A DNA stretch of 26,085 bases from a virus: the IMG/VR virus record IMGVR_UViG_3300037808_000652, positions 1-26,085 of that record; one strand, 5' to 3'. Both the position numbers and the translations under genes were made by a program. Shown here in pieces: positions 12,149 through 26,066 of the stretch (the first letter of the stretch is position 1; each line of letters opens with the position of its first letter). Below the pieces are notes generated by a model. It did not search any database. It worked only from the letters and a program-made list of their open reading frames with translations, and was not told where the DNA came from.

Positions 12149-12309
12149 CAAAAAAACAATTTAATAGCCATGAAATTTTACGGAGACAGTTGCCACTTAT
12201 TCATAAAAGTATAGCACATCGCTATAAGGATATTGAAAACAATAGCTAGTTAAGCGCGTGCGGGTAGCGAAAAACACACCGCAAACAGAAACCCTAACAG
12301 GAGAAAAGA
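12141..12309 (+). other. Gap between leader terminator and recT-like gene
   Basis: No gene is supported. It contains a perfect palindrome TATAGC-ACATC-GCTATA at 12210-12226 that could be a protein site, an imperfect hairpin TGCGGGT...ACCGCA around 12260-12284, and then the CCCTAACAGGAGAA element before the ATG at 12310. Confidence 0.5.
12292..12305 (+). repeat. Start-associated element, copy 1 (CCCTAACAGGAGAA)
   Basis: Lies four bases before the ATG of the RecT-like gene. The GGAG is the ribosome site; the CCCTAAC block upstream is shared by ten other copies in the window. Confidence 0.85.
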
Positions 12310-13242
12310 ATGAATCAATTAGTAAAACATTCCCACAACTTTTTACAACCGACCAACTTGGATGAGGCAATTCAATTTGCAGAAAAAATTAGCAATTCCG
12401 CTTTGGTGCCTACCGCGTACAAGGGAAAGCCAGATGATATTTTATGCGCCATTGGCTACGGTGCGGAATTAAACCTTTCCGCCTTCCAGAGTTTGCAAGG
12501 GGTTTTAGTTGTTAATGGTAAAGCCTCTTTATGGGGTGACACCTTAATTGCCATGGCAATAGGCCATTCGGAGTGTGAGGATTTCAAGGAATGGATCGAG
12601 GGTGAGGACGATAAGCGGATTGCCCATTGTGAAATCAAAAGGAAGGGGAAGAAAACCCCGTTCAAAAAATCCTTCTCTATAAAGGATGCGAAACGGGCAA
12701 CCTTATGGAATAAAAAAGGGCCGTGGCGTGATTATCCGATGGTAATGCTACAACAGCGGGCAACCTGTTTTTCTATTCGCCGTGCCTTTGCCGATACCCT
12801 TAAAGGTTTTACGACCATTGAGGAAGTAATTGATATCCCCGGCAACGAAAATGTTATTGATGTTGGGGAGCAGTACCCGCCGCTAGAAGTTGCGTTGACA
12901 GAAGAAACCCCACCCATCACAAAAGAATCCCAAGCCGAGGAAGTTAAGGAGCAGGACGATTTGCCGATTACTTCCGGCACCGAAAAAACAGAGCAGGAAA
13001 AAACCGAGGCAATGGTTGACGAATTTATTGACGATGTAAAGGACAAGTCAAAAGATTTCATTTCCAAAAAACAGCAAACGGAATTTGTGAAACTTGTAAC
13101 CAGTACCGGCCTATCTAAGAAGGCGGCGATTGCGTTACTGAAAACCAACAAAATCAAAAAGAGCGCCGAAATCCCAAAAGACAAATTCGATCACATCAGG
13201 AATGAAGTTGTGCGGATTGGAAAGGAAATGGCGAAAAAGTGA
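12310..13242 (+). CDS. recT: RecT-family single-strand annealing protein
   Basis: A 310-residue protein. Residues 15-170 follow the RecT plan: AEKISNSALVPTAYKGKPDDILCAIGYGAELNLSAFQSLQGVLVVNGKASLWGDTLIAMA, then a polar loop, then KRATLWNKKGPWRDYPMVMLQQRATCFSIRRAFADTLKG. The residues after about 200 are an acidic Glu/Lys linker and a small helical C-terminal domain (FVKLVTSTGLSKKAAIALLKTNKIKKSAEIP). It would anneal ssDNA during phage recombination and replication. A RecE-type exonuclease is not seen next to it; the DUF1064 protein at 18984 or the metallophosphoesterase could supply nuclease activity. It overlaps the following gene by four bases (GTGA). Confidence 0.85.
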   Translation: MNQLVKHSHNFLQPTNLDEAIQFAEKISNSALVPTAYKGKPDDILCAIGYGAELNLSAFQSLQGVLVVNGKASLWGDTLIAMAIGHSECEDFKEWIEGEDDKRIAHCEIKRKGKKTPFKKSFSIKDAKRATLWNKKGPWRDYPMVMLQQRATCFSIRRAFADTLKGFTTIEEVIDIPGNENVIDVGEQYPPLEVALTEETPPITKESQAEEVKEQDDLPITSGTEKTEQEKTEAMVDEFIDDVKDKSKDFISKKQQTEFVKLVTSTGLSKKAAIALLKTNKIKKSAEIPKDKFDHIRNEVVRIGKEMAKK

Positions 13243-13931
13243 ACCAACTCACTACAGAAAAAACGGTTGATGTTGGGGCGGATTTAAAACGCCGCGCCAA
13301 CTTGGTTGTGGCTAACGTGAAATTACTTGTAGTTAAGAATGACGATGATCTTACCAAAGCCGACAAGCTGGTTTCTGAATGGCACTCCCTTTCAAAAGGG
13401 ATAAAGGAATACTGGAAACCGATCAAGAGTAACGCAAAAAGTATTCTGGACGATGCCAAGGGGAAGGAAAGCCAGATGCTAGACCCAATCGCGGAAGGTT
13501 CGAAAGCCGTTGTTGAAAAGATGGCGGCGTATATAAAAGATCGTGACGAAATCCTGCAAGCCGAGATAGACAAAAAGAAGCAAGAAGAAAAAGATGCGGC
13601 GGAATTAGCGGCCTTCGAAATGGCAGAGGAAGGATTACCCGATGAGGCCATTAAATCAATGGAGGAATTGGCGGTAAATCCTGCCCCTGTCCAACTTGCA
13701 CACAAAACAATAAAAACTAAAACCACAATCAAGGACGATTGGGATGTTGAGGTGGTAAACGGGCAGGAAGCCCAAATACCACACGAACATTTAATTCCGG
13801 CAAATGAGGCCATGCGGAAGGCGGTTGCCGCCAATATCAAAAAGCTGGTAGTTGCTAAAAGTGGGAACATTGAGATAGCCGGAATCAGAATTACCAAAAA
13901 AGTCGGCTCAATCAAACGCGCCAGTAAGTAG
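13239..13931 (+). CDS. Coiled-coil recombination-module protein
   Basis: A 230-residue protein starting with GTG at 13239, overlapping the RecT-like stop. Residues 30-140 are long charged helices (SEWHSLSKGIKEYWKPIKSNAKSILDDAKGKESQMLDPIAEGSKAVVEKMAAYIKDRDEILQAEIDKKKQEEK) that look coiled-coil. The C-terminus (NIKKLVVAKSGNIEIAGIRITKKVGS) is a small conserved module common in phage proteins next to recT/bet genes. I do not recognise an enzyme motif. It probably works with the annealase, perhaps as a Gam-like or nuclease-partner protein; this rests on the context. Confidence 0.7.
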   Translation: MNQLTTEKTVDVGADLKRRANLVVANVKLLVVKNDDDLTKADKLVSEWHSLSKGIKEYWKPIKSNAKSILDDAKGKESQMLDPIAEGSKAVVEKMAAYIKDRDEILQAEIDKKKQEEKDAAELAAFEMAEEGLPDEAIKSMEELAVNPAPVQLAHKTIKTKTTIKDDWDVEVVNGQEAQIPHEHLIPANEAMRKAVAANIKKLVVAKSGNIEIAGIRITKKVGSIKRASK

Positions 13932-13945
13932 GCGTATTTTTAAAT

Positions 13946-13959
13946 CCCTAACAGGAGAA
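13946..13959 (+). repeat. Start-associated element, copy 2 (CCCTAACAGGAGAA)
   Basis: Seven bases before the ATG of the DUF669-like gene; identical to copy 1. Confidence 0.85.
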
Positions 13960-13966
13960 TTTTAGA

Positions 13967-14362
13967 ATGAAATTTAAAGAAGATGATTGCAGTGAGGGAA
14001 TGGAACCGCGAACCGAGGGTGTTTATTCCGGTGTCGTGGCGGAAGTGGAAGAAAAGCTAACAAAGAATGACGATGATATGTGGTCGATCAAATTTGAAGA
14101 TGAGGAAGATGGGCAAACCCTTTGTTACGACAACCTAGTTTTCAGCAAAAGCGGCAAGGGAATCGCGTTTACCAAGCTGAAAAACTTGGGCGTGGAAAAG
14201 GTCGATGGTTGTTACGAGTGCGAAAGCCAAGATTTGATCGGCAAAACCGTTCAACTGAATCTGGTTGAGGAAACATACAACAACAAAACCCACCTAACGC
14301 CGGATATTAACGCCGATGGTTTTGGTTATCAGTTGATTGAAAGCGATGATCCCGGCTTTTAA
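13967..14362 (+). CDS. DUF669-like ssDNA-associated protein
   Basis: A 131-residue acidic protein. The pattern EGVYSGVVAEVEEKLTKNDDDMWSIKFE...TLCYDNLVFSKSGKGIAFTKLKNLGVE...CESQDLIGKTVQLNLVEETYNNKTHLTPDI fits the phage DUF669 plan (an OB-like beta domain with 'G.Y...I...E', 'L...LG', 'L.G......L'). Members sit with recT and replication genes and may be single-strand binding proteins. The acidic C-terminus (ESDDPGF) ends in Phe, as in SSB tails that recruit partners. A strong terminator follows, so this closes a transcription segment. Confidence 0.7.
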   Translation: MKFKEDDCSEGMEPRTEGVYSGVVAEVEEKLTKNDDDMWSIKFEDEEDGQTLCYDNLVFSKSGKGIAFTKLKNLGVEKVDGCYECESQDLIGKTVQLNLVEETYNNKTHLTPDINADGFGYQLIESDDPGF

Positions 14363-14385
14363 TTTAGCCAGGGGGAATGTTTAGC

Positions 14386-14416
14386 CCCGCCTCTTAATTG
14401 AGGCGGGTACTTTTTG
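14386..14416 (+). terminator. Intrinsic terminator
   Basis: A perfect 8-bp stem CCCGCCTC/GAGGCGGG around TTAATT (14386-14407), followed by TACTTTTT. It separates the recombination genes from the replication genes, implying either partial read-through, antitermination or a promoter in the short gap. Confidence 0.85.
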
Positions 14417-14440
14417 GGATGGGAATTTTTGGAGTAAAAA

Positions 14441-15124
14441 ATGCTTTGGTTCAAAATGAAAACCGACAATCTTGAAGATCCATTTATATATGACTTGATT
14501 TCGCACCACGGCGCGAATGGCTACATGGTTTATTTCGGCGTAGTCAGTTTAATTTGCCGCGAAAATGGCAAGGAATGTACTGGTAAAGCGGATTTTTCAC
14601 AAACTTATCTTTGCCAGAAGTTGAGGTTGCGTTGGCCTACTGTCGAGCGGGTGTTGGCCTTCTGTCAGGCGGAAGGCAAACTTACGTTCAACAAAGTCGA
14701 AAACAAGTTGGCCTTCGATTTGCCTAAGATCAAGGATATCAGAGACGAGTACAGCAGGAAGTCCGGACACAAGCAGGAGGTTGTCAGGCATAAGAAAGAA
14801 GAAAAAAAGAATACAGATACAGAGCCGAAAAAAGTTGTTTGTGTGAATGGGAAAACAGTGCGGGAAAACTTTGACGAGGATTGGAAAAATTACAGACGGA
14901 AGGAAGGGAACAAGGAAAAGGCGTTTAAGTGCTACCAGAAAAATATCGGATCGGATTTCAATAAACGCGCCAAATTCCACGCACAGGTGATAGCCCAAAA
15001 CGAAACATACCCCGATGGGAAATATTTATTGGGGGCGGAAAAGTTTTTCAGGAATTGGGAAAGTTTAGAATTTGCGGGGAACCCTAGAGTCGCGGATACC
15101 AAATTGAAAGGGCTTGTGCTATGA
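14441..15124 (+). CDS. Phage replication initiator (DUF4373/DnaD-like)
   Basis: A 227-residue protein. The N-terminus WFKMKTDNLEDPFIYDLISHHGANGYMVYFGVVSLICREN is the winged-helix opening of phage replication organiser proteins. The middle (RHKKEEKKNTDTEPKKV) is a basic/polar linker and the C-terminus (FDEDWKNYRRKEGNKEKAFKCYQKN...GKYLLGAEKFFRNWESLE) is a small conserved domain found at the end of many phage replication proteins. It probably binds an origin and loads the downstream primase-helicase, whose ATG it overlaps by four bases (ATGA). No iterated origin repeats are obvious in the gene. GGAG lies six bases before its ATG. Confidence 0.72.
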   Translation: MLWFKMKTDNLEDPFIYDLISHHGANGYMVYFGVVSLICRENGKECTGKADFSQTYLCQKLRLRWPTVERVLAFCQAEGKLTFNKVENKLAFDLPKIKDIRDEYSRKSGHKQEVVRHKKEEKKNTDTEPKKVVCVNGKTVRENFDEDWKNYRRKEGNKEKAFKCYQKNIGSDFNKRAKFHAQVIAQNETYPDGKYLLGAEKFFRNWESLEFAGNPRVADTKLKGLVL

Positions 15125-16806
15125 GCGAAACCTTTTCAAGTTACGGGATTGAAGGTGCGGACAGGCGCACAGGGGAATTTTCAACTGTTTGCCCTGAATG
15201 TAGCGAATCAAGATCGAAGAAAAATATTAAATGTTTAAGCGTGAATGGTGATAAGGGCGTTTGGCATTGTCAACATTGTGGATGGAGTGGCGGTTTATTG
15301 GGCCACACCGACAAAGCCGCCAGTTCCCCGCAGAAGGCACTAAAAGAATACAAGGCCCCAAAGTATTCCCCAAAACCTTTAAGTGAAAAGGCGGTGGTTT
15401 GGTTAGCGGAGCGCGGGATTTCAAGCGATGTATTGGAGCAAAATAAAATAGGAGTACAGAGTGGAGGTATCGCCTTCCCATTCCTAGTGAACGGCGAAGT
15501 TGTAAATATTAAATTCAGAGGTGATAACAAAAAGTTTTGGCAATCAACTGGCGGCCTAAAAACTGTTTATGGATACGATGATATTAGCGAGGATTGCACA
15601 ATCATTGTTGAGGGCGAAATGGATAAGTTGGCCCTGCAGGAAGCCGGTTTTAAAAATTGCGTTTCCGTTCCCGATGGCGCACCGCCAATAGAAGCCAAGA
15701 ATTACAATACGAAATTTGATTTCTTATTACATTGTGAGAACCGTTTTAAGGAAGTTAAGAAATTCATAATCGCCACCGATAACGATGCGCCGGGGAAAAA
15801 ATTACGCGATGAATTAGCCCGCCGCCTTGAGCTATATCGGTGTGAATTGGTTACGTTCCCCGATGATTGTAAGGATGCCAACGATGTATTGATGAAACAT
15901 GGCGCGGAAACCCTGAAAAACTGCATAGAAAAAAGTTATCCATATCCAATCGAGGGAATTGTGCGGCTGGATGAGATTGATATGGAAGATTTTTATGAGA
16001 ATAACAAATTAAGCGGGGTTAGCGTTGGGTGGAACGAGGCCGATAAGCATTTTACCTTATCCGACCAGTGGGGGATGCTTCACATCGTAACAGGCGTGCC
16101 GGGGAGTGGGAAATCCGAATGGATGGATGCTTTAAGCCTTAATTTGGCGCGTGACGAGGGTTGGCGTTGGGGAATATATAGCCCCGAAAACTTCCCGATT
16201 GAAATGCACCTTTCAAAGTTGATGGAGAAGCACGTTGGCCTTCCTTTCCGCGATGGCTTCAAGCGAAAAATGGACATGAAGGATGTAAGGGCGGCAAAAG
16301 AATTTATTGGCGAGCATTATAGCTTTATCGCGCATACCGAGGATGTGATTTCGGTTGATGAATTTATCCAGTTCGGGAAAGTACTTTGCTACCGCCAAGG
16401 AATCCGAGGTTTGATTTGCGACCCTTGGAACGAATTATCAATGGACAGAGAAAACGGCCAAAGCGAAACAGAATTTATCTGCGAAAGTTTAACCAAGCTC
16501 CGCAGATTTGCAAGGGCGCACAACTGCCATGTTTTTGTAGTAGCCCACCCGCAGAAATTACGAAGAACGGAAAGCGGCCAATTCCCCACGCCATCCCTTT
16601 ACGACATTAGCGGATCGGCACATTGGCGAAACAAAGCCGACACCGGAATTGTAATTCACCGGCCAATTAATTTAGACGATCCAGAAGATAACCATGTGGA
16701 GGTACACATTTCCAAAGTGCGGTTCAAGCACCTTGGCGAATTAGGCGTGTTTGAATTGGACTACGAATATTCAACCGGAGTTTATAAAGATCGAATCAGT
16801 ATTTAA
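15121..16806 (+). CDS. Primase-helicase (zinc ribbon, TOPRIM and RecA-like domains)
   Basis: A 561-residue protein built like T7 gp4/Twinkle. A zinc ribbon has C24-X2-C27 and C50-X2-C53 (CPEC...CQHCGW). The TOPRIM domain has VEGEMDKLAL near residue 166 and the acidic DNDAPG near 221, followed by DANDVL. A RecA-like helicase domain has Walker A GVPGSGKS at about 325-332, and a hydrophobic strand LICDPWNEL near 435 fits Walker B. 'VVAHPQKLRR' and 'DISGSAHWRNKADTG' match later helicase motifs. It should prime and unwind DNA at the phage fork. It is translationally coupled to the initiator upstream. Confidence 0.88.
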   Translation: MSETFSSYGIEGADRRTGEFSTVCPECSESRSKKNIKCLSVNGDKGVWHCQHCGWSGGLLGHTDKAASSPQKALKEYKAPKYSPKPLSEKAVVWLAERGISSDVLEQNKIGVQSGGIAFPFLVNGEVVNIKFRGDNKKFWQSTGGLKTVYGYDDISEDCTIIVEGEMDKLALQEAGFKNCVSVPDGAPPIEAKNYNTKFDFLLHCENRFKEVKKFIIATDNDAPGKKLRDELARRLELYRCELVTFPDDCKDANDVLMKHGAETLKNCIEKSYPYPIEGIVRLDEIDMEDFYENNKLSGVSVGWNEADKHFTLSDQWGMLHIVTGVPGSGKSEWMDALSLNLARDEGWRWGIYSPENFPIEMHLSKLMEKHVGLPFRDGFKRKMDMKDVRAAKEFIGEHYSFIAHTEDVISVDEFIQFGKVLCYRQGIRGLICDPWNELSMDRENGQSETEFICESLTKLRRFARAHNCHVFVVAHPQKLRRTESGQFPTPSLYDISGSAHWRNKADTGIVIHRPINLDDPEDNHVEVHISKVRFKHLGELGVFELDYEYSTGVYKDRISI

Positions 16807-16808
16807 TC

Positions 16809-16822
16809 CCCTAACAGGAGAA
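16809..16822 (+). repeat. Start-associated element, copy 3 (CCCTAACAGGAGAA)
   Basis: Five bases before the ATG at 16828; it begins directly after the primase-helicase stop, so the element marks a gene start even inside what could be one operon. Confidence 0.85.
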
Positions 16823-16827
16823 CACCG

Positions 16828-17112
16828 ATGGATACATTTAAACAATTTACAGAATTTGATAAGGGTAATCCCGAAATATTCAAAACTTTTAAATCGTTTG
16901 CGGGCGAATTGTTGGCGGCTGGCAGAAAACAATACAGCGCGAAGGCCATTATTGAGAGGGTGCGATGGGATACCGACATTAAGACGGCGGGGAGTAGTTT
17001 TAAAATTAACAATAATTTCGCCCCATATTACGCGAGGAAGTTGATGCACGATTGCCCCATCTTTAAAGATTTTTTTAAAATCCGCCCAAGCGAAGCGGAT
17101 CAATGGAATTAA
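16828..17112 (+). CDS. Conserved phage hypothetical protein
   Basis: A 94-residue protein; the pattern FKSFAGELLAAGRKQYSAKAIIERVRWDT...FKINNNFAPYYARKLMHDCPIFKDFFKIR recurs in phages and in resident mobile elements, with unknown role. The helix-rich, basic nature and the position after the helicase suggest a DNA-associated accessory function. It carries its own CCCTAACAGGAGAA element, and a hairpin with TTTA follows its stop. Confidence 0.7.
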   Translation: MDTFKQFTEFDKGNPEIFKTFKSFAGELLAAGRKQYSAKAIIERVRWDTDIKTAGSSFKINNNFAPYYARKLMHDCPIFKDFFKIRPSEADQWN

Positions 17113-17117
17113 GAAGT

Positions 17118-17143
17118 AGTCGGCAGTATTGGGCCGACTTTAA
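17118..17143 (+). terminator. Probable weak intrinsic terminator
   Basis: AGTCGGC (17118-17124) and GCCGACT (17133-17139) form a perfect 7-bp stem with loop AGTATTGG, followed by TTAAA. The T tract is short, so termination may be partial. Confidence 0.5.
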
Positions 17144-17432
17144 ACCTAGTTTACGACTCGGAGCGGCGAGGTTCAATGCACTAACTCACGGCAATTATGC
17201 CAAAAAATTCATTGTAACAGTGGACTCCGATTTTTTAATTTGGACTGCAATTATATCAAGTTTTTAAAAATCAAATGCTACAGGCTTCACCCTTGACGGT
17301 AGGGATAATCTATACCTGTCGCGGCGCAGGGTAATAATCGTCAGCCGCACTTATTCGAGTCAAGCCCCACATTAAACGCAAGGTATCTGCGGTGCGCCGG
17401 GGGCATAAACGGCGCAATTCTCCAAAACTGGC

Positions 17433-17459
17433 AGGGGCCAGGGTGATGCCGCCCCTTTT
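17433..17459 (+). terminator. Hairpin with T tract before the coiled-coil gene
   Basis: AGGGGC (17433-17438) pairs with GCCCCT (17451-17456) and is followed by TTTTA. It is a plausible terminator for an RNA made from the preceding gap, placed just before a start-associated element. Confidence 0.5.
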
Positions 17460-17466
17460 ACTTTAA

Positions 17467-17479
17467 CCCTAACAAGAGG
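17467..17479 (+). repeat. Start-associated element, copy 4 (CCCTAACAAGAGG)
   Basis: A variant copy before the ATG at 17488; the ribosome site here is AAGAGG. Confidence 0.75.
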
Positions 17480-17487
17480 TAACGAAC

Positions 17488-17841
17488 ATGAGTGGAACAG
17501 AAGAAAACGAAAACGAGATGGAACACAAAAAAACAGATTGGGAAATCCTGCGGGAGCTACAAAAGGATTTGGATTACCGCAAATTACAACTCCGAAACGA
17601 GGAATTGAAATTTCTAGAAACCCATCCCGACCTTCGGAACGAGGCTTTGATGCGGGAAAAGGATCGGCATAATTTGGAATTTGCCAAGGCGGAGGATTTC
17701 CGCAAGCACACAGAGCAATTCGCCGCCCACACGGTACGAATGGATGCTTATTTTGAAAACGCGCAAAATCAAAGTGAGCGTTTCAACTCCATCATGGATC
17801 GGATAGCAACGGCGATGGAAAAAAGTAACTCGAAAATATAA
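17488..17841 (+). CDS. Hypothetical coiled-coil protein
   Basis: A 117-residue, highly charged protein that is helical over almost its whole length (WEILRELQKDLDYRKLQLRNEELKFLETHPDLRNEALMREKDRHNLEFAKAEDFRKHTEQ), with few hydrophobics and no membrane segment or Cys motif. I do not recognise the family. It leads a run of six small overlapping or close genes down to the integrase. The start is fixed by the AAGAGG site nine bases upstream. Confidence 0.65.
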   Translation: MSGTEENENEMEHKKTDWEILRELQKDLDYRKLQLRNEELKFLETHPDLRNEALMREKDRHNLEFAKAEDFRKHTEQFAAHTVRMDAYFENAQNQSERFNSIMDRIATAMEKSNSKI

Positions 17842-17852
17842 ACCGTAATGAT

Positions 17853-17908
17853 CGCTATTGTTGCACCGTGATAGCGATTGCACGATTGCCTTCACGGGCG
17901 AACGGTGC
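17853..17908 (+). promoter_or_regulatory. Possible H-type pseudoknot before the DUF7220-like start
   Basis: CGCTAT (17853-17858) pairs with ATAGCG (17871-17876). In its loop, GCACCGT (17863-17869) pairs with ACGGTGC (17902-17908), which ends eight bases before the ATG at 17917. Both stems are perfect and interleaved. No other Shine-Dalgarno site is evident, so this RNA could control initiation. Confidence 0.4.
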
Positions 17909-17916
17909 GCCAAATT

Positions 17917-18156
17917 ATGCAAACAAAAAAACAAAGTTTAATTGAGGCGTTTGTGGGAATCGGAATTGGATTTGGCGTGGCCATCGCCGGTCAATACATC
18001 GTTTATCCATATTTCGGCATGGAAACAACCATTGGAGACAACATAAGAATAGCGGGAATATTTACAGTGATTTCGATAATCCGCAGTTACTTTGTGCGGC
18101 GTGGTTTCAACTGGTATCACAATAGACAAATGGAGGCAGAAAATGGCAAGCGGTAA
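17917..18156 (+). CDS. DUF7220-like small membrane protein (two TM)
   Basis: A 79-residue protein. KKQSLIEAFVGIGIGFGVAIAGQYIVYPYFGMETTIGDNIRIAGIFTVISIIRSYFVRRGFNWYH fits a widespread phage family with two hydrophobic segments (about residues 8-30 and 43-60) and the conserved ending RSY.VRR.FN; I believe this is DUF7220. Its function is unknown. ATG 17917 is preferred over an upstream TTG at 17878 because the family begins at this residue. The last 14 bases overlap the next gene. Confidence 0.75.
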   Translation: MQTKKQSLIEAFVGIGIGFGVAIAGQYIVYPYFGMETTIGDNIRIAGIFTVISIIRSYFVRRGFNWYHNRQMEAENGKR

Positions 18157-18304
18157 AAGAATAATTTTACAGGAAGATCAGGTTGTCGTGGATCGGGAAA
18201 AATTAGCCGAAATGGTTATGGAGGCGTTTCAGAAAGGCAAAGAAATTGGGATGCAAGAAGAAGCGGAATTGAGCGCAGTTTTACGAGGGGCTGATTCGCT
18301 TTGA
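18143..18304 (+). CDS. Hypothetical small protein
   Basis: A 53-residue protein from ATG 18143, chosen because GGAGG lies about six bases upstream. It begins ASGKRIILQEDQVVVDREKLAEMVMEAFQKGKE and is acidic and helical. The family is not recognised. Overlaps at both ends (14 bases upstream, TTGA downstream) show it is translated within the operon. Confidence 0.6.
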   Translation: MASGKRIILQEDQVVVDREKLAEMVMEAFQKGKEIGMQEEAELSAVLRGADSL

Positions 18305-18492
18305 AAAAAGTAATAACAATCACACAAGAAAGATTTAACAAGGTGATGAGTGAGATCATAGCCGATTTGAATAACGTAACACCGGAACAGGAACACAAAC
18401 AGAAGGTACGCAATCGGCGGTATCTGGAAAAGGTGTGCTTCGAATCTTGCAAGAGGGAAGGGATTTTATATGAGCCTAATCGACAAGGCTAA
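18301..18492 (+). CDS. Hypothetical small protein, TTG start
   Basis: A 63-residue basic protein starting at TTG 18301, which overlaps the previous stop as TTGA; GAGGGG lies upstream. It opens KKVITITQERFNKVMSEIIADLNN and carries two Cys (KVCFESCKRE). The family is not recognised. It overlaps the following gene by 23 bases. Confidence 0.6.
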   Translation: MKKVITITQERFNKVMSEIIADLNNVTPEQEHKQKVRNRRYLEKVCFESCKREGILYEPNRQG

Positions 18493-19388: not shown

Positions 19389-20375
19389 ATGTCAGATAGG
19401 ATCATCCAGCGCGGAAAGAAGGGCGTGTTTTATGCGGATACGATGTATATGTCAGTCCACATAAAAGATTGCCTTCGCACAACGGATGAGAAAATAGCCC
19501 GCCGCAGATTGTGGGAAATTAAAATTTCAATCGAGGAAGGAGGTTATCAATTAAGCAGGAAAAAGTTTAGTTACTTTGCCGAACAGGTGATGGAAGATGG
19601 CTTAAACGAGCGCGATGAGGTAAACATGAGAGTTCATATCATGCCGCATTTTGGAGAAACAAAAATGGGTGAACTTGATATTGAAGGTTGGATAAACTCG
19701 CGCCTCGACAAGCCTAAAAGCACGCTACAAAAGGAAATGCGGACACTAGCCAAGGTAATGAGAAAGGCCGACCCAAATTTCCAGATGCCAAAACCGCGCT
19801 TCAAGAACGAAGGCAAGGTTTTCGATGAAAGCCAAATCTTATCGCGTGATGAGGTGGAAATGGTGGTTCGTGATTACGTCCTGCAGGAATATAAAATTCC
19901 CTGTTTGGTTGCCGCTTATTCTACCCTGCGCCTCAAGAATGTAATCGGGTTGAGAAAAAAGGATGTGAATTTTTCCGAGGGATGGATACGGGTTAAACAA
20001 TCCAAAACCGGAAAGCCTGTTTCAATCCCGATTACCGAAACCTTGAAGGGAGTTTTTAGCCAGGTTAAAATTCGCCCCTTACTGGCGGATGATTTATGGT
20101 TCCCCGGCGTGGATGCCAACGCAATCGGTATTCAGGTTTCCAGATCGTTTACGCGTGCGGGGATTGCATGGGCGAGTTTCCATTCCCTGCGCCATTTTGG
20201 TGCGTGCTTTTTAATAGCAAACGGGGTTCCATTGGAGGTAATCAGGATTATAATGGGCCACGCGGATTTTAGATCAACACTTGTTTACGCAAGATTGAAG
20301 GGGGATAAAATTAAGGAAGCGATGGGCGTTTTTGACCGCCTACCACTTCCCCAAAACTTCCCCAAATCGGTATGA
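19389..20375 (+). CDS. int: Tyrosine integrase
   Basis: A 328-residue site-specific recombinase from ATG 19389, with GGAGG six bases upstream (an in-frame start at 19338 would add 17 unlikely residues). The catalytic residues are visible: R181 (STLRLKN), K206 (QSKTGKP), H265-x-x-R268 (FHSLRH), H291 (MGHADF) and Y300 (LVYARL). The N-terminal half (about residues 40-130) is the core-binding/SAM-like part. It would integrate and excise the phage at a host tRNA-Glu gene, whose 3' half lies 35 bases downstream. The last codons overlap an arm-type repeat. No excisionase is recognised. Confidence 0.93.
   Translation: MSDRIIQRGKKGVFYADTMYMSVHIKDCLRTTDEKIARRRLWEIKISIEEGGYQLSRKKFSYFAEQVMEDGLNERDEVNMRVHIMPHFGETKMGELDIEGWINSRLDKPKSTLQKEMRTLAKVMRKADPNFQMPKPRFKNEGKVFDESQILSRDEVEMVVRDYVLQEYKIPCLVAAYSTLRLKNVIGLRKKDVNFSEGWIRVKQSKTGKPVSIPITETLKGVFSQVKIRPLLADDLWFPGVDANAIGIQVSRSFTRAGIAWASFHSLRHFGACFLIANGVPLEVIRIIMGHADFRSTLVYARLKGDKIKEAMGVFDRLPLPQNFPKSV
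20345..20365 (+). repeat. Left arm-type site of attP
   Basis: A 21-bp sequence made of two ACTTCCCCA words spaced 11 bases, identical to 20547-20567 and in the same orientation. It lies inside the final codons of the integrase gene, on the other side of the tRNA-like core, which is the layout of integrase arm-binding sites. Confidence 0.75.
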
Positions 20376-20409
20376 CAGTTTTTTGTCGGTTGCAAACCCT
20401 TATAGAATA

Positions 20410-20453
20410 TAGCCCCAAGGGGAATCGAACCCCTGTTTCCGGCGTGAGAGGCC
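20410..20453 (-). other. attP core: 3' half of a tRNA-Glu(CTC)-like sequence
   Basis: On the minus strand the bases give anticodon stem CTGGC/GCCGG with loop CTCTCAC (anticodon CTC, Glu; plus-strand 20446-20448), then T arm GGGGTTCGATTCCCC and acceptor end TGGGGCT plus A at 20410. There is no matching D arm or 5' acceptor half upstream, so it is not a working tRNA. This is the copy of the host gene's 3' end that lets a phage integrate without destroying the tRNA. The core probably runs from 20410 to about 20453, where the phage sequence departs from a normal tRNA-Glu. Confidence 0.82.
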
Positions 20454-20498
20454 AGCAACACTTAGCATTTCCGCGTTCAAGATTTCAAAAGGGCTTTT

Positions 20499-20518
20499 GT
20501 TTGTAAGAGTTTGTAAGA
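20499..20518 (+). repeat. Tandem 10-bp repeat beside attP
   Basis: GTTTGTAAGA occurs twice head-to-tail (20499-20508 and 20509-20518), between the core and the right arm site. It is a possible binding site for an excision or bending factor. Confidence 0.6.
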
Positions 20519-20546
20519 CCGTCAAAATTCTGCATGGGTGTTTTGG

Positions 20547-20567
20547 ACTTCCCCAAAACTTCCCCAA
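20547..20567 (+). repeat. Right arm-type site of attP
   Basis: Identical to 20345-20365 (21 of 21 bases, same orientation). The core lies between the two copies; this copy precedes the gene to the right. Confidence 0.75.
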
Positions 20568-20580
20568 TTATTAAACGACC

Positions 20581-20590
20581 CCCTAACAGG
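20581..20590 (+). repeat. Start-associated element, copy 5 (shortened)
   Basis: CCCTAACAGG only, ending seven bases before ATG 20598. Confidence 0.65.
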
Positions 20591-20597
20591 TAATTTA

Positions 20598-21794
20598 ATG
20601 CGCGGAACTTTGATTGACGAAGGGTTAAAAGAGTACGCCACAGAGATACAACGCCAGTATATAGATGCGGTAAATGAACACGGATCGGAAAGAAAAGCGG
20701 CCGCCGCACTTGGGAAATCCAAAACAGGTATTCATAACGGCATTGCGCATGCGAAAAAGAACGCCGCCAAGCATGGATACGCCCCCGAAAAAGATTTAAT
20801 CCATCCTGTACCAAACTCCCACTACGCAAAGGGGGTTTCCACCTTATACGATAAAGAGGGCAAGGTTCGCCTTCAATGGGTAAAATCCCAAACCAAGGCG
20901 GAAGATTTACGCGAAACCGCAGAGCAAATTGTTGAGTCTCTTACCATTGAACCGCGCCCCCCTTTACCCACTCCCAAACATACCCTTGCCGACCTTCTAA
21001 CAGTCTATCCAATGGGTGATCCACATATTGGGATGTATTCATGGTTTGCCGAAACCGGCGCGGATTTTGATTGCGATATTGCCGAGCGTGATTTATGCGC
21101 CGCCATTGACAGGTTGACTCTTACCGCAGAGCCTACAGAAAAGGCGCTCATAGCAAACTTGGGCGATTTTTTCCATGCCGATAATCAGCAGGGAGTCACG
21201 GCAAGAAGCGGAAACGCGCTGGATGTGGACACGCGAAAGCAAAGGGTGATGGTGATAGGTGTTCGAATAATGACTTATCTAATTGATGCGGTTTTGAAAC
21301 GCCACAAACAGGTAACGGTGATAAACGAAATCGGAAACCATGATGATGAGTCGGCGTATATTTTATCATTAATTTTGAGCGCACATTATCGGGACGAACC
21401 CCGCGTTGAAATCGACCTCTCCCCGCAAACCTTCCACTTCTACCGCTTCCATAAGGTATTCATCGGCGTAACGCACGGCTACCAGTGTAAGCCCGACAAA
21501 TTAGGGCAAGTAATGGCGGCGGATAGGGCGGTGGAGTGGGGCGAAACCGAACACAGGTATTGGCTTGTTGGCCATGTGCACCACTCATCCAAAAAAGAAG
21601 TGCCAGGATGCGTGATCGAATCATTCAGGACATTGGCGGCGAAAGACGCATGGCACGCGGCGGCTGGTTATCGCTCCGGTAGGGATATGGTACGGATTAC
21701 TTATCATAAAGAATTTGGCGAAGTTGGCAGGGAAATTGTAGGAATCAAACAAATAATATCAATGCACAAAATATTACAAGGGAGCAATAATTGA
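20598..21794 (+). CDS. HTH-metallophosphoesterase fusion
   Basis: A 398-residue protein. Residues about 15-55 form a helix-turn-helix (ERKAAAALGKSKTGIHNGI). A calcineurin-like phosphoesterase domain has the full metal set: D141-x-H143 (GDPHIGM), D190 (NLGDFFHAD), N247-H248 (GNHDDE), H293 (THGY) and H326-x-H328 (GHVHH). It should use two metal ions to hydrolyse phosphoester bonds, probably in DNA, as SbcD-like phage enzymes do; the substrate is unproven. The start at ATG 20598 follows the CCCTAACAGG element; upstream in-frame starts would run through the arm site. It leads a three-gene group ending with the SPFH protein. Confidence 0.82.
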   Translation: MRGTLIDEGLKEYATEIQRQYIDAVNEHGSERKAAAALGKSKTGIHNGIAHAKKNAAKHGYAPEKDLIHPVPNSHYAKGVSTLYDKEGKVRLQWVKSQTKAEDLRETAEQIVESLTIEPRPPLPTPKHTLADLLTVYPMGDPHIGMYSWFAETGADFDCDIAERDLCAAIDRLTLTAEPTEKALIANLGDFFHADNQQGVTARSGNALDVDTRKQRVMVIGVRIMTYLIDAVLKRHKQVTVINEIGNHDDESAYILSLILSAHYRDEPRVEIDLSPQTFHFYRFHKVFIGVTHGYQCKPDKLGQVMAADRAVEWGETEHRYWLVGHVHHSSKKEVPGCVIESFRTLAAKDAWHAAAGYRSGRDMVRITYHKEFGEVGREIVGIKQIISMHKILQGSNN

Positions 21795-22138
21795 TGGGTA
21801 TTGGCGAAATGGGGATGGAACAAAAAGACAAATCGGAATCAGGTGCAACCCGCAATTCAATCCCTTTTTACAGGTTTGATTTATTGGTATTCGCTTTTCT
21901 CGCTGAAATGGCGGCGGTAATGGCCGAGGGCGTACTTTCGCACGGCGAAGAAAACTGGAAAGGCGGCTTTGACAACGAGGGCCGGGATATTGTCAACCAC
22001 ATCTGGAACCACTGGCGGCAATACTTGGATGGCGACCGGACGGAAAGGCACTTGGCTAAAATGGCCATTGGCTTGATGTTCCTTTGGTACTTCGAACGGG
22101 AACGGCAACAGGAGAACGCCGACCATGACATTAAGTGA
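21794..22138 (+). CDS. dATP/dGTP diphosphohydrolase N-terminal-like protein
   Basis: A 114-residue protein; YRFDLLVFAFLAEMAAVMAEGVLSHGEENWKGGF...IVNHIWNHWRQYLDGDRTERHLAKMAIGLMFLWYFE fits the PF18909-type module (all-helical, NTP pyrophosphohydrolase-like) seen in phage nucleotide-pool enzymes. The conserved pattern 'G..NW..G', 'H..RH...Y..G' and 'HLA.A..N..FL' is present with small changes (RHLAKMAIG, lacking the usual N). It has no second domain, so it is shorter than full enzymes and may act as a partner subunit. TGATG couples it to the preceding stop. Confidence 0.7.
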   Translation: MGIGEMGMEQKDKSESGATRNSIPFYRFDLLVFAFLAEMAAVMAEGVLSHGEENWKGGFDNEGRDIVNHIWNHWRQYLDGDRTERHLAKMAIGLMFLWYFERERQQENADHDIK

Positions 22139-22655
22139 AATCGTTGAAGCCCTTTTAAAATTTTTTCCGCGCCTAGAAATCGTGGAACCGGATCAAATTG
22201 GCGTACTGCGCCGGTGCGGGAAAATAAAACGGCAGTTATCCCCCGGCGTTGTATTCTGTTATCCATACTTCGATGAGGTTTTTGTTTGCGTTGCCGCCAA
22301 GCAGATTTTACATATCCAAGAACAGAGTATAAAAACTTTGGATGGTAAAATTTTCGCGGTGAGCGGCGCGGTTTTGTTTATTGTTGAAGATCCCAGCAAG
22401 GCGATTATAGATATTGACGATCTGGACGAATACTTAGGCACGGAATTGGCGGGCAGGATTTCAGATTTTATTAGCTTAAATCAGTCCACAGAAATAAATA
22501 ACGAGAGCTTAAAAAAAAATTTAATGGTTCCGTACTTCCGCCAGAAAATTAGAGATGAATCCGGTATCGTGATTAATAAGGTTTTCGTCCATGATTTAGT
22601 ACCGCATAAAATCATTCGATTAATGAATACAAGTACAAGGGGGGAGGTGGAATAG
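22125..22655 (+). CDS. SPFH/Band 7 (stomatin-prohibitin-like) protein
   Basis: A 176-residue protein. LEIVEPDQIGVLRRCGKIKRQLSPGVVFCYPYFDEVF...QSIKTLDGKIFAVSGAVLFIVEDPSKAI...LAGRISDFISLNQSTEIN is the Band 7 order (a 'V...E.GV...GK....L.PG....P..D' opening, then 'T.DG....V...V...V.D'). Only a weak hydrophobic N-terminus (EIVEALLKF) is seen and the coiled-coil tail of host stomatins is short, so it may bind membranes or host HflK/HflC/FtsH scaffolds peripherally. AACAGGAGAA precedes the ATG, a partial start-associated element. It overlaps the previous gene by 14 bases. Confidence 0.8.
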   Translation: MTLSEIVEALLKFFPRLEIVEPDQIGVLRRCGKIKRQLSPGVVFCYPYFDEVFVCVAAKQILHIQEQSIKTLDGKIFAVSGAVLFIVEDPSKAIIDIDDLDEYLGTELAGRISDFISLNQSTEINNESLKKNLMVPYFRQKIRDESGIVINKVFVHDLVPHKIIRLMNTSTRGEVE

Positions 22656-22685
22656 TCCAGCACAAGGGAAATGGCGAAGCCGTTT

Positions 22686-22714
22686 TTGGATAAAATAGCC
22701 TTGTGAGGTACTAT
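22686..22714 (+). promoter_or_regulatory. Candidate sigma70 promoter for the lipoprotein gene
   Basis: TTGGAT (22686-22691) and TACTAT (22709-22714) are spaced by 17 bases, 32 bases before ATG 22747. With the terminator after the gene this makes a one-gene transcription unit. Confidence 0.55.
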
Positions 22715-22746
22715 ATCGGGGTATTTACAATTTTTCGAGGTTTGCC

Positions 22747-23076
22747 ATGCGATATTTAATAATTTTTATACTTCTTATTCCAGCCTGTGCAACACAAGAG
22801 CATTTGCCAAGAGTTTCGCCGGAATCCGCCGCCACTTTTTCGTGCCAGGGGATTGCTGATGAAATAAAAATTGCTGAAAATCACCTTGCTAATATCGGTG
22901 TTGGATTGGAACCGGAAGGAATGTTTGAGGCTATTTTACTTTCGCCGGTAATGGCACTCGACCACATGGAAGCGAATAAGGCAGAAGAAAATGCGGAATT
23001 AAGAATTGAGGATTTAGAAAAGTTACAGGTGGAAAAAGGTTGCGTGTTAATGGGCGAGAAAACCCCTCAAACCTAA
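22747..23076 (+). CDS. Phage lipoprotein, lysogenic-conversion candidate
   Basis: A 109-residue protein with signal peptide MRYLIIFILLIPAC and a lipobox IPAC with Cys at residue 14, so it should be lipidated and anchored in the envelope. The mature part is polar and helical, with two more Cys (CQG, KGC). I do not recognise a family. An independent promoter and a bidirectional-looking terminator, with no overlap to neighbours, are typical of 'moron' genes expressed from a prophage; superinfection exclusion is one possible job. It is alone here, so a spanin role is less likely. Confidence 0.72.
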   Translation: MRYLIIFILLIPACATQEHLPRVSPESAATFSCQGIADEIKIAENHLANIGVGLEPEGMFEAILLSPVMALDHMEANKAEENAELRIEDLEKLQVEKGCVLMGEKTPQT

Positions 23077-23095
23077 AAAGGAATGAGGGGCTTTT
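23063..23095. terminator. Terminator between convergent genes
   Basis: CCCCTCA (23063-23069) and TGAGGGG (23084-23090) form a perfect 7-bp stem, followed by CTTTTTG on the plus strand and preceded by AAAA (a T run on the minus strand). It serves the lipoprotein gene and could also stop the minus-strand operon. Confidence 0.8.
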
Positions 23096-23105
23096 TGTTA
23101 CACGG

Positions 23106-23447
23106 CTATTTGCCCCCCTTCTCATTCATTACGTCCAAATCTTCCTTCATTACATAAGGCGTGCGTTGCCAAGACCACATGACATAATAAGCCAAATCAT
23201 CTGCCGGATCGGTTCCTGATTCCATTTGGAACCCGACATACTTCTTGGCAATCTCAAAAAGTTTTCCCTCATCCATGCCGCCGCAGTTGTAATATTCCGT
23301 TTCGAATTTTTCGGAGATTTTTAAGGCTTCTTGCAAAACCTTTATCTGCTCGCCCTCATCTGGATTGTTGGCGTTATCATCGCAAAAATCTTGTATGCGC
23401 TGATGCGCCTGACTAATAACAATTTCCAGCGCCTGTTTAACTAACAT
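23106..23447 (-). CDS. Hypothetical protein of the minus-strand accessory operon
   Basis: A 113-residue protein from ATG 23447, chosen because GTGGAG lies seven bases before it. It is acidic and helical (VKQALEIVISQAHQRIQDFCDDNANNPDEGEQIKVLQEALKIS) and ends WSWQRTPYVMKEDLDVMNEKGGK. No family is recognised. It is the last gene of the minus-strand operon and overlaps the Cys-rich small gene by 11 bases. Confidence 0.65.
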   Translation of the reverse strand: MLVKQALEIVISQAHQRIQDFCDDNANNPDEGEQIKVLQEALKISEKFETEYYNCGGMDEGKLFEIAKKYVGFQMESGTDPADDLAYYVMWSWQRTPYVMKEDLDVMNEKGGK

Positions 23448-23556
23448 TTTTCGACTCCACTTTAAAATTTTCCGCACAAACTATGCAGATTTTTATCTCC
23501 CCTTTGATTAGCGGGAAATCGCATTTATCGCAACACTTCACCATATTATTTTCCAT
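23437..23556 (-). CDS. 39-residue zinc-ribbon-like protein
   Basis: A small frame, ATG 23556 to TAA 23437, with GGAGG nine bases upstream of the start. It contains CCDKCDF and CIVCAEN, two C-x2-C knuckles 15 residues apart, a classic zinc ribbon. It overlaps both neighbours by 11 bases, fitting a packed operon. It could bind nucleic acid or protein. Confidence 0.65.
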   Translation of the reverse strand: MENNMVKCCDKCDFPLIKGEIKICIVCAENFKVESKNVS

Positions 23557-23722
23557 CGGCTAAATCCTCCGGCGTAAGTTTAAATTCATATTCCAAAGCC
23601 CGCATTATTAGCATCCGTGCGGCGGTGGCGTGTAGCACGCCCTCCTGTTCCGCGAATCGGTTAATATAATCATCCATTTTTGTACTGGTTAAAATTTGAA
23701 ATTTGATCGGATAATTTACCAT
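23546..23722 (-). CDS. 58-residue ribbon-helix-helix-like protein
   Basis: From ATG 23722 with AAAGGGC upstream. The segment KFQILTSTKMDDYINRFAEQEGVLHATAARMLIMRALEYEF looks like a short beta strand followed by two helices, as in Arc/MetJ-type repressors ('i.v.l....d.i...a...g.s...a...l.r.l'). It could autoregulate the operon or bind the repeated start-associated element. It follows two tandem copies of that element. Confidence 0.6.
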   Translation of the reverse strand: MVNYPIKFQILTSTKMDDYINRFAEQEGVLHATAARMLIMRALEYEFKLTPEDLADGK

Positions 23723-23736
23723 TTACTTTGCCCTTT

Positions 23737-23750
23737 CTCTCATGTTAGGG
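23737..23750 (-). repeat. Start-associated element, copy 6 (variant)
   Basis: CCCTAACATGAGAG on the minus strand, upstream of the ribbon-helix-helix-like gene. Confidence 0.65.
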
Positions 23751-23756
23751 TGAACC

Positions 23757-23772
23757 GTTCTCTTGTTAGGGG
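23757..23772 (-). repeat. Start-associated element, copy 7 (tandem)
   Basis: CCCCTAACAAGAGAAC on the minus strand, only six bases upstream of copy 6; the only tandem pair in the window. Confidence 0.7.
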
Positions 23773-23785
23773 AACTGTTTAAATG

Positions 23786-23824
23786 GCGGGCATGGGGTAA
23801 TCGGAACCCTATGCCCGCTTTTTT
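23786..23824 (+). terminator. Strong plus-strand terminator
   Basis: GCGGGCATGGGGT pairs with ACCCTATGCCCGC through 13 bp including one GU, followed by six T (23819-23824). On the minus strand the stem has a mismatch and no T tract. It lies between minus-strand genes, so its apparent job is to stop antisense (plus) transcription. Confidence 0.8.
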
Positions 23825-23909
23825 ATAAAACCATTGCACCGCAAAGTATGATGTAGCCAAATATAGCGGCGGTTAAAACTTGCAACACATCCCAAAAAGT
23901 AATATTCAC
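23823..23909 (-). CDS. 28-residue membrane peptide
   Basis: GTG 23909 overlaps the stop of the upstream gene as GTGA and has a GGAG-like site (GATGGAG) close by; it ends at TAA 23823. The peptide is almost one TM helix (LQVLTAAIFGYIILCGAMVL). Coupling to the upstream gene and the clean stop before the terminator hairpin argue that it is translated. Confidence 0.5.
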   Translation of the reverse strand: MNITFWDVLQVLTAAIFGYIILCGAMVL

Positions 23910-24298
23910 TCCATCACCTCTTTGGCTAAGAGGTTGTGGTTTACTTCAATGAATCCTTCCGCGTTTGGCGTACCTGTTAAAATCTTATCCGCCAAATTAT
24001 TCCCATCTATTAATAAATTTTTTAATTCCGCCTCTGTTCGGGTTTGCATAATCCGCTTGGACAATTTACATACAATTTCAAATTTTCTAAGCACTGGTAC
24101 TACTCGATATTCTTCCTCATCGTAGCCCTCATCTTCGGCACGCAAGCCCAATTGAATTTCCGTGTTAATATCATCCAGAAATTCGGCAATATCGGCTTGC
24201 GCTTCCTGTTCGGTTTTGTAGCGAATTTTATTTCCATCGCCATCCGTCCAACAATTTATCCATCCATCGCAAATAGTGTAGGTTTGGACTTCAAACAT
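23906..24298 (-). CDS. Conserved acidic hypothetical protein
   Basis: A 130-residue protein beginning FEVQTYTICDGWINCWTDGDGNKIRYKTEQEAQADIAEFLDDI, a pattern found in phages and plasmids of marine proteobacteria, followed by ED-rich EDEGYDEEEYRVVPV. The role is unknown; the N-terminal half looks like a small beta-alpha domain. It is preceded by a consensus start-associated element four bases before ATG. Confidence 0.7.
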   Translation of the reverse strand: MFEVQTYTICDGWINCWTDGDGNKIRYKTEQEAQADIAEFLDDINTEIQLGLRAEDEGYDEEEYRVVPVLRKFEIVCKLSKRIMQTRTEAELKNLLIDGNNLADKILTGTPNAEGFIEVNHNLLAKEVME

Positions 24299-24302
24299 TT
24301 TC

Positions 24303-24318
24303 GTTCTCCTTGTTAGGG
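24303..24318 (-). repeat. Start-associated element, copy 8 (CCCTAACAAGGAGAAC)
   Basis: Consensus copy, four bases before ATG 24298. Confidence 0.9.
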
Positions 24319-24326
24319 GTTGGTTG

Positions 24327-24629
24327 TTACTTGATCCACTGTTTTTCGCGGTAATACTTCGCCGGTTGATATGATTTAATCCGCGTAAAGTTTGATATTT
24401 TTACGTTAGCCAAAAGATGTTTGCGGATTAATCGGTAGTGTATAAAATTGCCATTCGCGGCCACATAATTGTGATACGCTTCCATCGCCTTTTCTTTTTC
24501 ATCGAAACGATCAATCACTTGGAATATTTTTGGCGGTTTTGTTCTATTAATACCCGCCTCAATAGTTTCGTTTTCATATATTGATCGGTTGCATCCTTCG
24601 AGGTTGTATTCATAAAATTCTTGTGGCAT
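24327..24629 (-). CDS. Hypothetical protein
   Basis: A 100-residue basic protein: PQEFYEYNLEGCNRSIYENETIEAGINR then VIDRFDEKEKAMEAYHNYVAANGNFIHYRLIRKHLL. It is Tyr-, Asn- and Lys-rich with no recognised family and no membrane segment. It has its own start-associated element and lies eight bases upstream of the next gene's element. Confidence 0.6.
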   Translation of the reverse strand: MPQEFYEYNLEGCNRSIYENETIEAGINRTKPPKIFQVIDRFDEKEKAMEAYHNYVAANGNFIHYRLIRKHLLANVKISNFTRIKSYQPAKYYREKQWIK

Positions 24630-24633
24630 TTCA

Positions 24634-24650
24634 ATTCTCCGTTGTTAGGG
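24634..24650 (-). repeat. Start-associated element, copy 9 (CCCTAACAACGGAGAAT)
   Basis: A one-base-longer variant, four bases before ATG 24629. Confidence 0.8.
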
Positions 24651-24675
24651 TTTCCCTCTGGTTAAACACTTAATC

Positions 24676-24699
24676 GGAGCCACCCCGCAGGATGGCCCC
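24676..24699 (-). terminator. Intercistronic hairpin without T tract
   Basis: On the minus strand GGGGCCA pairs with TGGCTCC (one GU), between the stop at 24710 and copy 9. No U run follows, so it may be an RNA stability or regulatory hairpin rather than a terminator. Confidence 0.45.
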
Positions 24700-24709
24700 T
24701 GTTAAGGGT

Positions 24710-25192
24710 TTACCAACTTGACGAGTAATAAAGGTCGAGGTCGCAATCCGTTTCAAGGTATTCGCTTAACGCTTGTTCGGTGATTTTAATATCTTCAAAA
24801 TACCAATCGTTAATTTCAGTGTTCCCAAAAAAGAAACCTGATTGCGGAGGCAAAAGGGATTGGATTTTTTCAGGATTGTTTTTATTGCCCAATACAATTT
24901 TGCACAGGTCGCGAAGTTCGGCTAGTTGCTCCCTTGTTACATAGTATTCGCCGCAATTGTCATTCCCCTCTTGCACGTTATCGACAAACCATTTGTGGAT
25001 TTGGTTTGATTTCCGCCATTGAATAATTTTGTATTCGATACCGCTAATTGGAAGCCCAACAGCGGGGGTGCCTTGTTTTTGGTTTAATTCTGTAATCGTC
25101 TGTTTTATTACATTTTGAAATTCAACGTGCTTTGGATCGTAGTCATAAGTTGAAACGTATTGTTTGCCTGTTAAATATTGGTCTAAGCCCAT
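24710..25192 (-). CDS. Conserved phage/bacterial hypothetical protein (MGLDQYL family)
   Basis: A 160-residue protein with the recurrent signature MGLDQYL...IIQWRKSNQIHKWFVDNVQEGNDNCGEYYVTREQLAELRDLCKIVLG...LLPPQSGFFFGNTEINDWYFEDI. This small family is widespread in phages and prophages with unknown function; conserved W-R-K-x-N-x-I-H and GFFFG motifs suggest a ligand pocket. It sits in the middle of the minus-strand operon behind a consensus start-associated element. Confidence 0.78.
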   Translation of the reverse strand: MGLDQYLTGKQYVSTYDYDPKHVEFQNVIKQTITELNQKQGTPAVGLPISGIEYKIIQWRKSNQIHKWFVDNVQEGNDNCGEYYVTREQLAELRDLCKIVLGNKNNPEKIQSLLPPQSGFFFGNTEINDWYFEDIKITEQALSEYLETDCDLDLYYSSSW

Positions 25193-25196
25193 CGTA

Positions 25197-25212
25197 ATTC
25201 TCCTTGTTAGGG
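25197..25212 (-). repeat. Start-associated element, copy 10 (CCCTAACAAGGAGAAT)
   Basis: Consensus copy, four bases before ATG 25192. Confidence 0.9.
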
Positions 25213-25220
25213 GTTAAGGT

Positions 25221-25238
25221 GGGGGCCGTTAAGCCCCC
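25221..25238 (-). terminator. Intercistronic hairpin without T tract
   Basis: GGGGGC/GCCCCC around a six-base loop just after the DUF932 gene's stop and before copy 10. The minus-strand flank (ACCTTAAC) has no U run. Confidence 0.5.
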
Positions 25239-25247
25239 GTTAAAGGT

Positions 25248-26045
25248 TTAAGCGTATATTCCTACTTCCTCGAATACTTCGTGGACTCCGTAAATTGTCC
25301 GTTCCTGATTCGGTGCGGACATTGTTTTAGCTACTTGAGTGAAGGCGTTATATACGCTCCAAGCGTTCCCCTCACCGTGCATTTTTTGGTGTTCGGGGCT
25401 GAAATATTCGCCATGTACTTTCCCGATATCGTTCCAAGCAATTTTGTTCAATTCGGCGGCGGTTACTAAAATATTGTTGAAACAAATTTCGTCTACAAGC
25501 GATTTCTGCATTTTGTTTCCAGCTTCCGTAATTTCTTCGGCTTGGATAACGTAATTCTGCAAACCTTTGTGGACTTCTTCCTCTAGGTCGAGGCCGGTTG
25601 TGTGCTTTCGCCGTGTCTCGGCTCCTAACGCTTCATTGATAACCATTCCATTACTGCAAACGATTACCCAGCAACCCGTGAACATGGTTAAGGCGAATTT
25701 AAAATTGTTGGAATTTTTAAATCCGATCATCGGCTCAACTTGGCCTTCCATTGGCTTGATCTGTTTACCTTTGTGGAACATATCCACCGCAAGGCTTCCG
25801 TAAATTTCAGATCCACTCCCACCCACCAAAAACTTGTCACCTCGTTTGTCATTTTTCGCCAATTGGATTTCGTGGCCTTGTGAGTTGGTAAAAGTTTTCT
25901 CGTCCATTTGACGATCCATTTCGGCTAGTAAATCGCCGTGCTTAACTGGCTTCCATATTGGTCGATCATGTTTTGGAGGGTTGATTTTCATAACATCACC
26001 AATTTGTGCGGGTACTATTTTTTTGTTCTGGTTTGCTGTAAACAT
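25248..26045 (-). CDS. DUF932 phage/plasmid-like protein
   Basis: A 265-residue protein of the DUF932 type. The first 100 residues (HDRPIWKPVKHGDLLAEMDRQM...LAVDMFHKGKQIKPMEGQVEPMIGFKNSNNFKFALTMFTGCWVIVCSNGMVINE) contain the family core 'P.IG..NS.....A...FAG..VFVCSNGM', followed by helices with LNKIAWNDIG and WSVYNAFTQVAKTMSA near the end. These proteins are abundant on phages and plasmids and have no settled function. It is the most upstream minus-strand gene seen. Its element lies five bases before the ATG and a promoter is probably beyond the window edge. Confidence 0.82.
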   Translation of the reverse strand: MFTANQNKKIVPAQIGDVMKINPPKHDRPIWKPVKHGDLLAEMDRQMDEKTFTNSQGHEIQLAKNDKRGDKFLVGGSGSEIYGSLAVDMFHKGKQIKPMEGQVEPMIGFKNSNNFKFALTMFTGCWVIVCSNGMVINEALGAETRRKHTTGLDLEEEVHKGLQNYVIQAEEITEAGNKMQKSLVDEICFNNILVTAAELNKIAWNDIGKVHGEYFSPEHQKMHGEGNAWSVYNAFTQVAKTMSAPNQERTIYGVHEVFEEVGIYA

Positions 26046-26050
26046 TTTTA

Positions 26051-26066
26051 ATTCTCCTTGTTAGGG
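26051..26066 (-). repeat. Start-associated element, copy 11 (CCCTAACAAGGAGAAT)
   Basis: Consensus copy, five bases before ATG 26045. Confidence 0.9.

Follow-up and report, generated by a model that had tools for sequence, protein, structure and literature searches.

Does the short sequence that recurs just ahead of many gene starts in this viral DNA belong to an ordinary ribosome site, or is it an element in its own right? The window considered here is the IMG/VR record IMGVR_UViG_3300037808_000652 (positions 1 to 26,085), both strands of which were analyzed. A first-pass annotation had described an 11-copy, 15-letter start-associated element; the 8-mer CCCTAACA is indeed present at all 11 of the positions and strands then named, but the 15-mer CCCTAACAAGGAGAA has only three exact copies in the record, all on the minus strand, and is thereby ruled out as the unit. 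The conserved unit is CCCTAACA itself, and it is a real, phage-specific element: the 26,085 bases of the record contain 15 copies versus about 0.55 expected from Markov models of order 1 to 3. The heptamer CCCTAAC is likewise found 15 times (2.5 expected from shuffles), and the next letter is an A in every one of these 15 cases.

The letters that follow the 8-mer differ between copies (GGAGAA, AGGAGAA, ACGGAGAA, AGAGGTAA, GGTAA, TGAGAG). When the leaders are compared with each other, the mean pairwise identity is 1.00 within the block, 0.49 in the Shine-Dalgarno (SD) part and 0.26 beyond it, while the 19 nt upstream of the block reach 0.27 against a random background of 0.22. Because conservation falls off from the block to the SD side, it cannot be put down to an ordinary ribosome site, and the earlier suggestion that the upstream block is kept beyond the needs of the SD thus holds. 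The dissimilarity of the flanks, which lie at background, also excludes a recent duplication of longer leaders, and hence duplicated longer cassettes, as the source of the copies.

As had been supposed, the copies are concentrated upstream of gene starts: 10 of the 15 precede a start by no more than 30 nt, compared with a chance expectation of 0.35 (P ~1e-13). Altogether, 11 of the 15 copies are located in the leaders of ten genes, always in the sense orientation, and all ten of these genes start with ATG. On the plus strand, the block is found at 12292-12299 (18 nt before the ATG at 12310 of a RecT-like gene), at 13946-13953 (ATG at 13967, SSB-like gene, in a 35-nt gap), at 16809-16816 (ATG at 16828, phrog_13625 protein, in a 21-nt gap), at 17467-17474 (ATG at 17488; AGAGG follows in place of GGAG) and at 20581-20588 (ATG at 20598, metallophosphoesterase/exonuclease; followed by GGTAA). 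The minus-strand copies lie at 26059-26066, near the record end (ATG at 26045, DUF932 gene), at 25205-25212 (ATG at 25192; a GGGGGC hairpin is present upstream), at 24643-24650 (ATG at 24629; with a stable upstream hairpin) and at 24311-24318 (ATG at 24298, in a 28-nt gap). The remaining two, at 23764-23771 (again with a stable hairpin upstream) and at 23743-23750 (28 nt before the ATG), form a tandem pair before a single gene that starts at 23722, so that 11 copies serve ten genes. A possible 6-codon ORF (MRERAK) is enclosed by this pair on the minus strand (23722-23771), overlaps its second copy, and has its stop codon immediately before the next ATG. Nine copies begin 17-21 nt ahead of the ATG, counted from the first base of the block, and end 9-13 nt before it. 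The exact 8-mer is present within 35 nt before ten starts, and all others have at least two mismatches, nearly all of them at least three, a picture left unchanged by three positions in the start list that are off by a few bases or lack a start codon. The sole start with two mismatches carries CCATAATAGGAGAA before 11024 and belongs to the only tail-side gene with a long gap.

The marked genes comprise those for the RecT-like, SSB-like, phrog_13625, metallophosphoesterase/exonuclease and DUF932 proteins, together with short unknown proteins; on the minus strand, they are mostly short ORFs without known relatives. In the non-structural half of the window, CCCTAACA is present at 10 of the 15 genes that follow a gap of 15 nt or more versus none of the 13 coupled genes (P 2.5e-4), a division that relies on our own gene calls, of which a few small ORFs are uncertain. 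The proposition that genes within overlapping runs lack the element is therefore borne out. Five of the 15 gap genes in this half are without it. The integrase gene, the repressor gene and the gene beside the latter do not carry it. Tail genes had also been described as free of the element; this is correct for their starts but not for their interiors, where four exact copies reside. The segment 21794-22655 contains genes for a dATP/dGTP diphosphohydrolase N-terminal domain and for a Band 7/SPFH-domain protein, as judged by Pfam.

In our view, CCCTAACA is probably a leader element, phage-specific and tied to gene starts, that acts in the manner of the start-associated sequence (SAS) of cluster K mycobacteriophages and is read in the mRNA. 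Its position, its orientation, its exactness and its association with independently initiated cistrons would all point to recognition in the mRNA at the start of translation. The marked cistrons are non-structural ones with an intergenic gap, which have to start translation on their own; in their mRNA, the 8-mer may provide a sequence-specific mark for an RNA-binding factor of the phage or host, or for the initiating ribosome. In this way, replication, recombination and accessory cistrons that are initiated separately could have their translation raised or switched as a group, and this control would not extend to coupled cistrons or to the tail and lysogeny genes.

A regulator acting at the level of RNA is more likely than one acting on DNA. 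The first-pass annotation had entertained a dispersed promoter system, an idea that does not stand: copies are found in gaps of 21 to 35 nt inside operons, promoter-like sites are no more common in the window (27) than in shuffled sequence (27.5), and the copies have no -35/-10 hexamers at a constant distance ahead of them. A promoter would not fit into the 21-, 28- and 35-nt gaps within operons, so that a role at the RNA level, at the start of translation, is most likely.

The SAS of cluster K was described by Pope et al. in 2011 (PMC3203893) as a short asymmetric repeat with the consensus GGGATAGGAGCCC (up to two mismatches being allowed for membership) that is present in 11-19 copies directly before starts, mostly ATG, of non-structural genes with a sizeable upstream gap, that is conserved beyond what pairing with the 16S rRNA requires, and that in some copies is accompanied by a 17-bp inverted repeat upstream (ESAS). 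The likeness in concept that had been noted for the present phage withstands comparison, as did the proviso that the sequences are unrelated. Both systems consist of short asymmetric repeats before the starts of non-structural gap genes, include or adjoin the SD, and are similar in copy number, orientation and conservation beyond SD needs. However, CCCTAACA plus SD is unrelated to GGGATAGGAGCCC, so that the element is no member of the SAS family by sequence; conservation is here confined to a block ahead of an SD that varies, the copies occupy both strands because genes do so, and the host belongs to a different phylum. The confinement of SAS to non-structural genes is paralleled by all start-associated copies here, but not by the four extra ones inside tail genes. 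The gap rule is followed to the extent of the 10 of 15 gap genes and 0 of 13 coupled genes, although several of the gaps are shorter than 50 nt. The ESAS inverted repeat has no counterpart, since the hairpins upstream of some copies differ in sequence and other copies have none.

The four copies inside tail genes are the main fact that a translational reading leaves unexplained. Two of them are on the plus strand and away from any start, inside the tape-measure gene (1934-1941) and inside the tail fibre gene (7523-7530), and two are antisense, on the minus strand, inside the tail gene at 4727-5410 (5232-5239) and inside the tail fibre gene (6560-6567). Only 0.23 copies would be expected in the tail coding sequences, an excess with P ~1e-4 for the 8-mer and 0.025 for the 7-mer. 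Copies without a start keep a DNA-binding reading alive, and the 8-mer could also be read as DNA. The stoperators of cluster A mycobacteriophages are dispersed asymmetric DNA sites, many of them near starts, that act through the repressor. By analogy, a repressor or silencing protein of the phage might bind CCCTAACA as DNA, at sites mostly in leaders but also in tail genes, a possibility that we regard as unlikely, though as the most viable of the competing explanations. It would account for an asymmetric, exact sequence that is dispersed across both halves of the record and for an excess in tail genes on both strands. Stoperators, which are mentioned in PMC3203893, resemble CCCTAACA in being dispersed and asymmetric, whereas here the distance to the SD and the start is nearly fixed, the copies at starts are always in sense orientation, and the repressor control region (11851-11866) has another palindrome, GTTACA-N4-TGTAAC, and no CCCTAACA was detected in it. 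For the same reason, an operator for the CI repressor is unlikely. The palindrome and the one strong promoter of the window (TTGACA-N17-TATTAT at 11874, adjoining the repressor) are situated between the repressor and the rightward genes (11851-11902) and likely represent the lysogeny switch.

Slightly less likely still is a leader that does no more than offer a preferred translation-initiation sequence, unstructured or rich in A/C, with no reader dedicated to it. The block does adjoin the SD, and similar A/C-rich leaders exist in other phages, for instance in the IMG/VR record G089, but the block, unlike the SD, does not vary at all, and at SD-ATG starts of unselected phage loci CCCTAAC was found in only one of 332 cases, so that no such preference is seen there. 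In folding predictions, the block did not make the SD more accessible, as the SD and the block were no more exposed than with random or shuffled blocks; these predictions thus lend no support to a passive unstructured-leader effect. Some copies are preceded by stable hairpins (z down to -5.9), yet these differ in sequence and are missing from several copies. In view of the inconstant hairpins and the lack of a folding effect, we prefer a sequence-specific reader to a passive enhancer.

The core of boxA is CTTTAACA, with which CCCTAACA agrees at six of eight letters. A boxA-like antitermination or Nus-factor RNA site repeated along operons appears improbable nonetheless: some copies are preceded by hairpins, and G089 has both CTTTAACA and CCCTAACA before SDs, but no CTTTAACA precedes any start in the window, several copies lack a hairpin, and the block adjoins the SD of single cistrons instead of being found a single time in a leader. 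Least probable of all is a short common sequence kept at cassette boundaries for module exchange by recombination, since, even though short ORFs with no known relatives make up most of the marked minus-strand genes, the block also stands before core replication genes within operons, and only eight letters are common, with flanks at background. A CsrA-type ACARGGA site was rejected, as it would fit only the AAGGAG copies, its GGA falling into the variable part, and the 3' tail of the 16S rRNA would be too short to pair, in register, with a block upstream of the SD.

The record most likely represents a temperate phage of the Nitrospinota, probably of marine nitrite-oxidizing Nitrospina, a view suggested by its attachment site, its integrase and the relatives of its primase/helicase. 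The attP core (20410-20450, minus strand), just past the integrase gene, is identical to the 3' half of a Nitrospinaceae tRNA-Glu(CTC), and this 41-mer recurs in 35 stretches of the genome collection, nearly all of them from metagenome-assembled genomes of Nitrospina or other Nitrospinota. A 54%-identical integrase adjoins the same tRNA on contig L157, and the primase/helicase has relatives with 44-48% identity in Nitrospinota genomes versus at most ~35% in GenBank phages. The literature searched contains no paper that names a Nitrospina phage. The element is not a translation signal of the host, as CCCTAAC precedes none of 71 host starts and the block is rare in host DNA (CCCTAACA three times in 394 kb of Nitrospinota DNA; three matches to CCCTAACANGGAGAA in 77 Nitrospinota genomes).

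The nearest relative found, IMG/VR record 3300031167_000001 (G001; L092/L215/L216), keeps the order of RecT, exonuclease and primase, and its exonuclease, primase and integrase are 70%, 42% and 41% identical to those of the present phage. For the first-pass annotation, relatives that retained GGAG without CCCTAAC would have counted against the element, and G001 is such a case: its entire record contains no CCCTAACANGRGA, and its listed gene leaders carry no block. The element is therefore confined to a lineage, and we read its absence from G001 as such a restriction, comparable to that of SAS among mycobacteriophages, rather than as a lack of function. IMG/VR searches with the primase, DUF932, RecT and tail fibre proteins retrieved no relatives, and DUF932 had no match in phage or plasmid collections. 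IMG/VR scans yielded 86 stretches with the 15-mer plus ATG and 83 with the 14-mer plus ATG, mostly as single copies; they were run without a control, and no enrichment is claimed.

SAS has been without an explanation since 2011; in the literature searched, it is described in mycobacteriophages and mentioned once for an enteric phage. The present virus, which appears to be a temperate phage of important marine nitrite oxidizers, provides an independent SAS-like instance in a host of another phylum. Because its invariant block is cleanly set apart from the variable SD, the two can be changed separately, which makes the question testable. The enteric case is Citrobacter phage Mordin (PMC4611695, KT363872), in which a 26-bp SAS-like repeat precedes the starts of small non-structural genes, eight of which were named; at least 16 leaders with CCTAAACTGGAG can be counted in its segment 8700-15600 (L299). 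The Mordin consensus CCTAAACTGGAGAAT has CCTAA in common with CCCTAACA, at the same offset from GGAGAA, but the Mordin leader is conserved over a greater length, its SD is invariant at most starts, and the intergenic gaps are larger. The two phages are likened by the leader repeat alone, no homology having been seen.

The IMG/VR records G089 and L293 have the CCCTAACA block at several starts, and the likeness among this phage, Mordin, G089 and L293 may reflect either convergence or descent. It is conceivable, though rather doubtful, that a dedicated phage-encoded factor (an RNA-binding protein or small RNA) switches the cistron regulon during infection of Nitrospina and that the CCTAA core upstream of GGAG represents a convergent control layer in these unrelated phages. 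Three further loci (L065, L073, L030) were rejected as carriers of the same element, as they contain GTTAGGGnnnCCCTAAC palindromes that have letters in common with it but not the layout. These dense GTTAGGG-NNN-CCCTAAC palindromes, many of which stand before an SD and ATG, possibly constitute an operator or stoperator system. G089 (L300-L301), a virus record of 115.7 kb, contains numerous repeated leaders, among them CGTAACCCAACCCTAACAGGAGAACGAAAGATG and GTAACTTTAACAAGGAG. In L293 (4680-5090), two leaders consist of a duplicated promoter-like sequence, a hairpin, and then CCCTAACA with an SD; the stems of these hairpins differ in sequence, while their pairing and the layout are kept.
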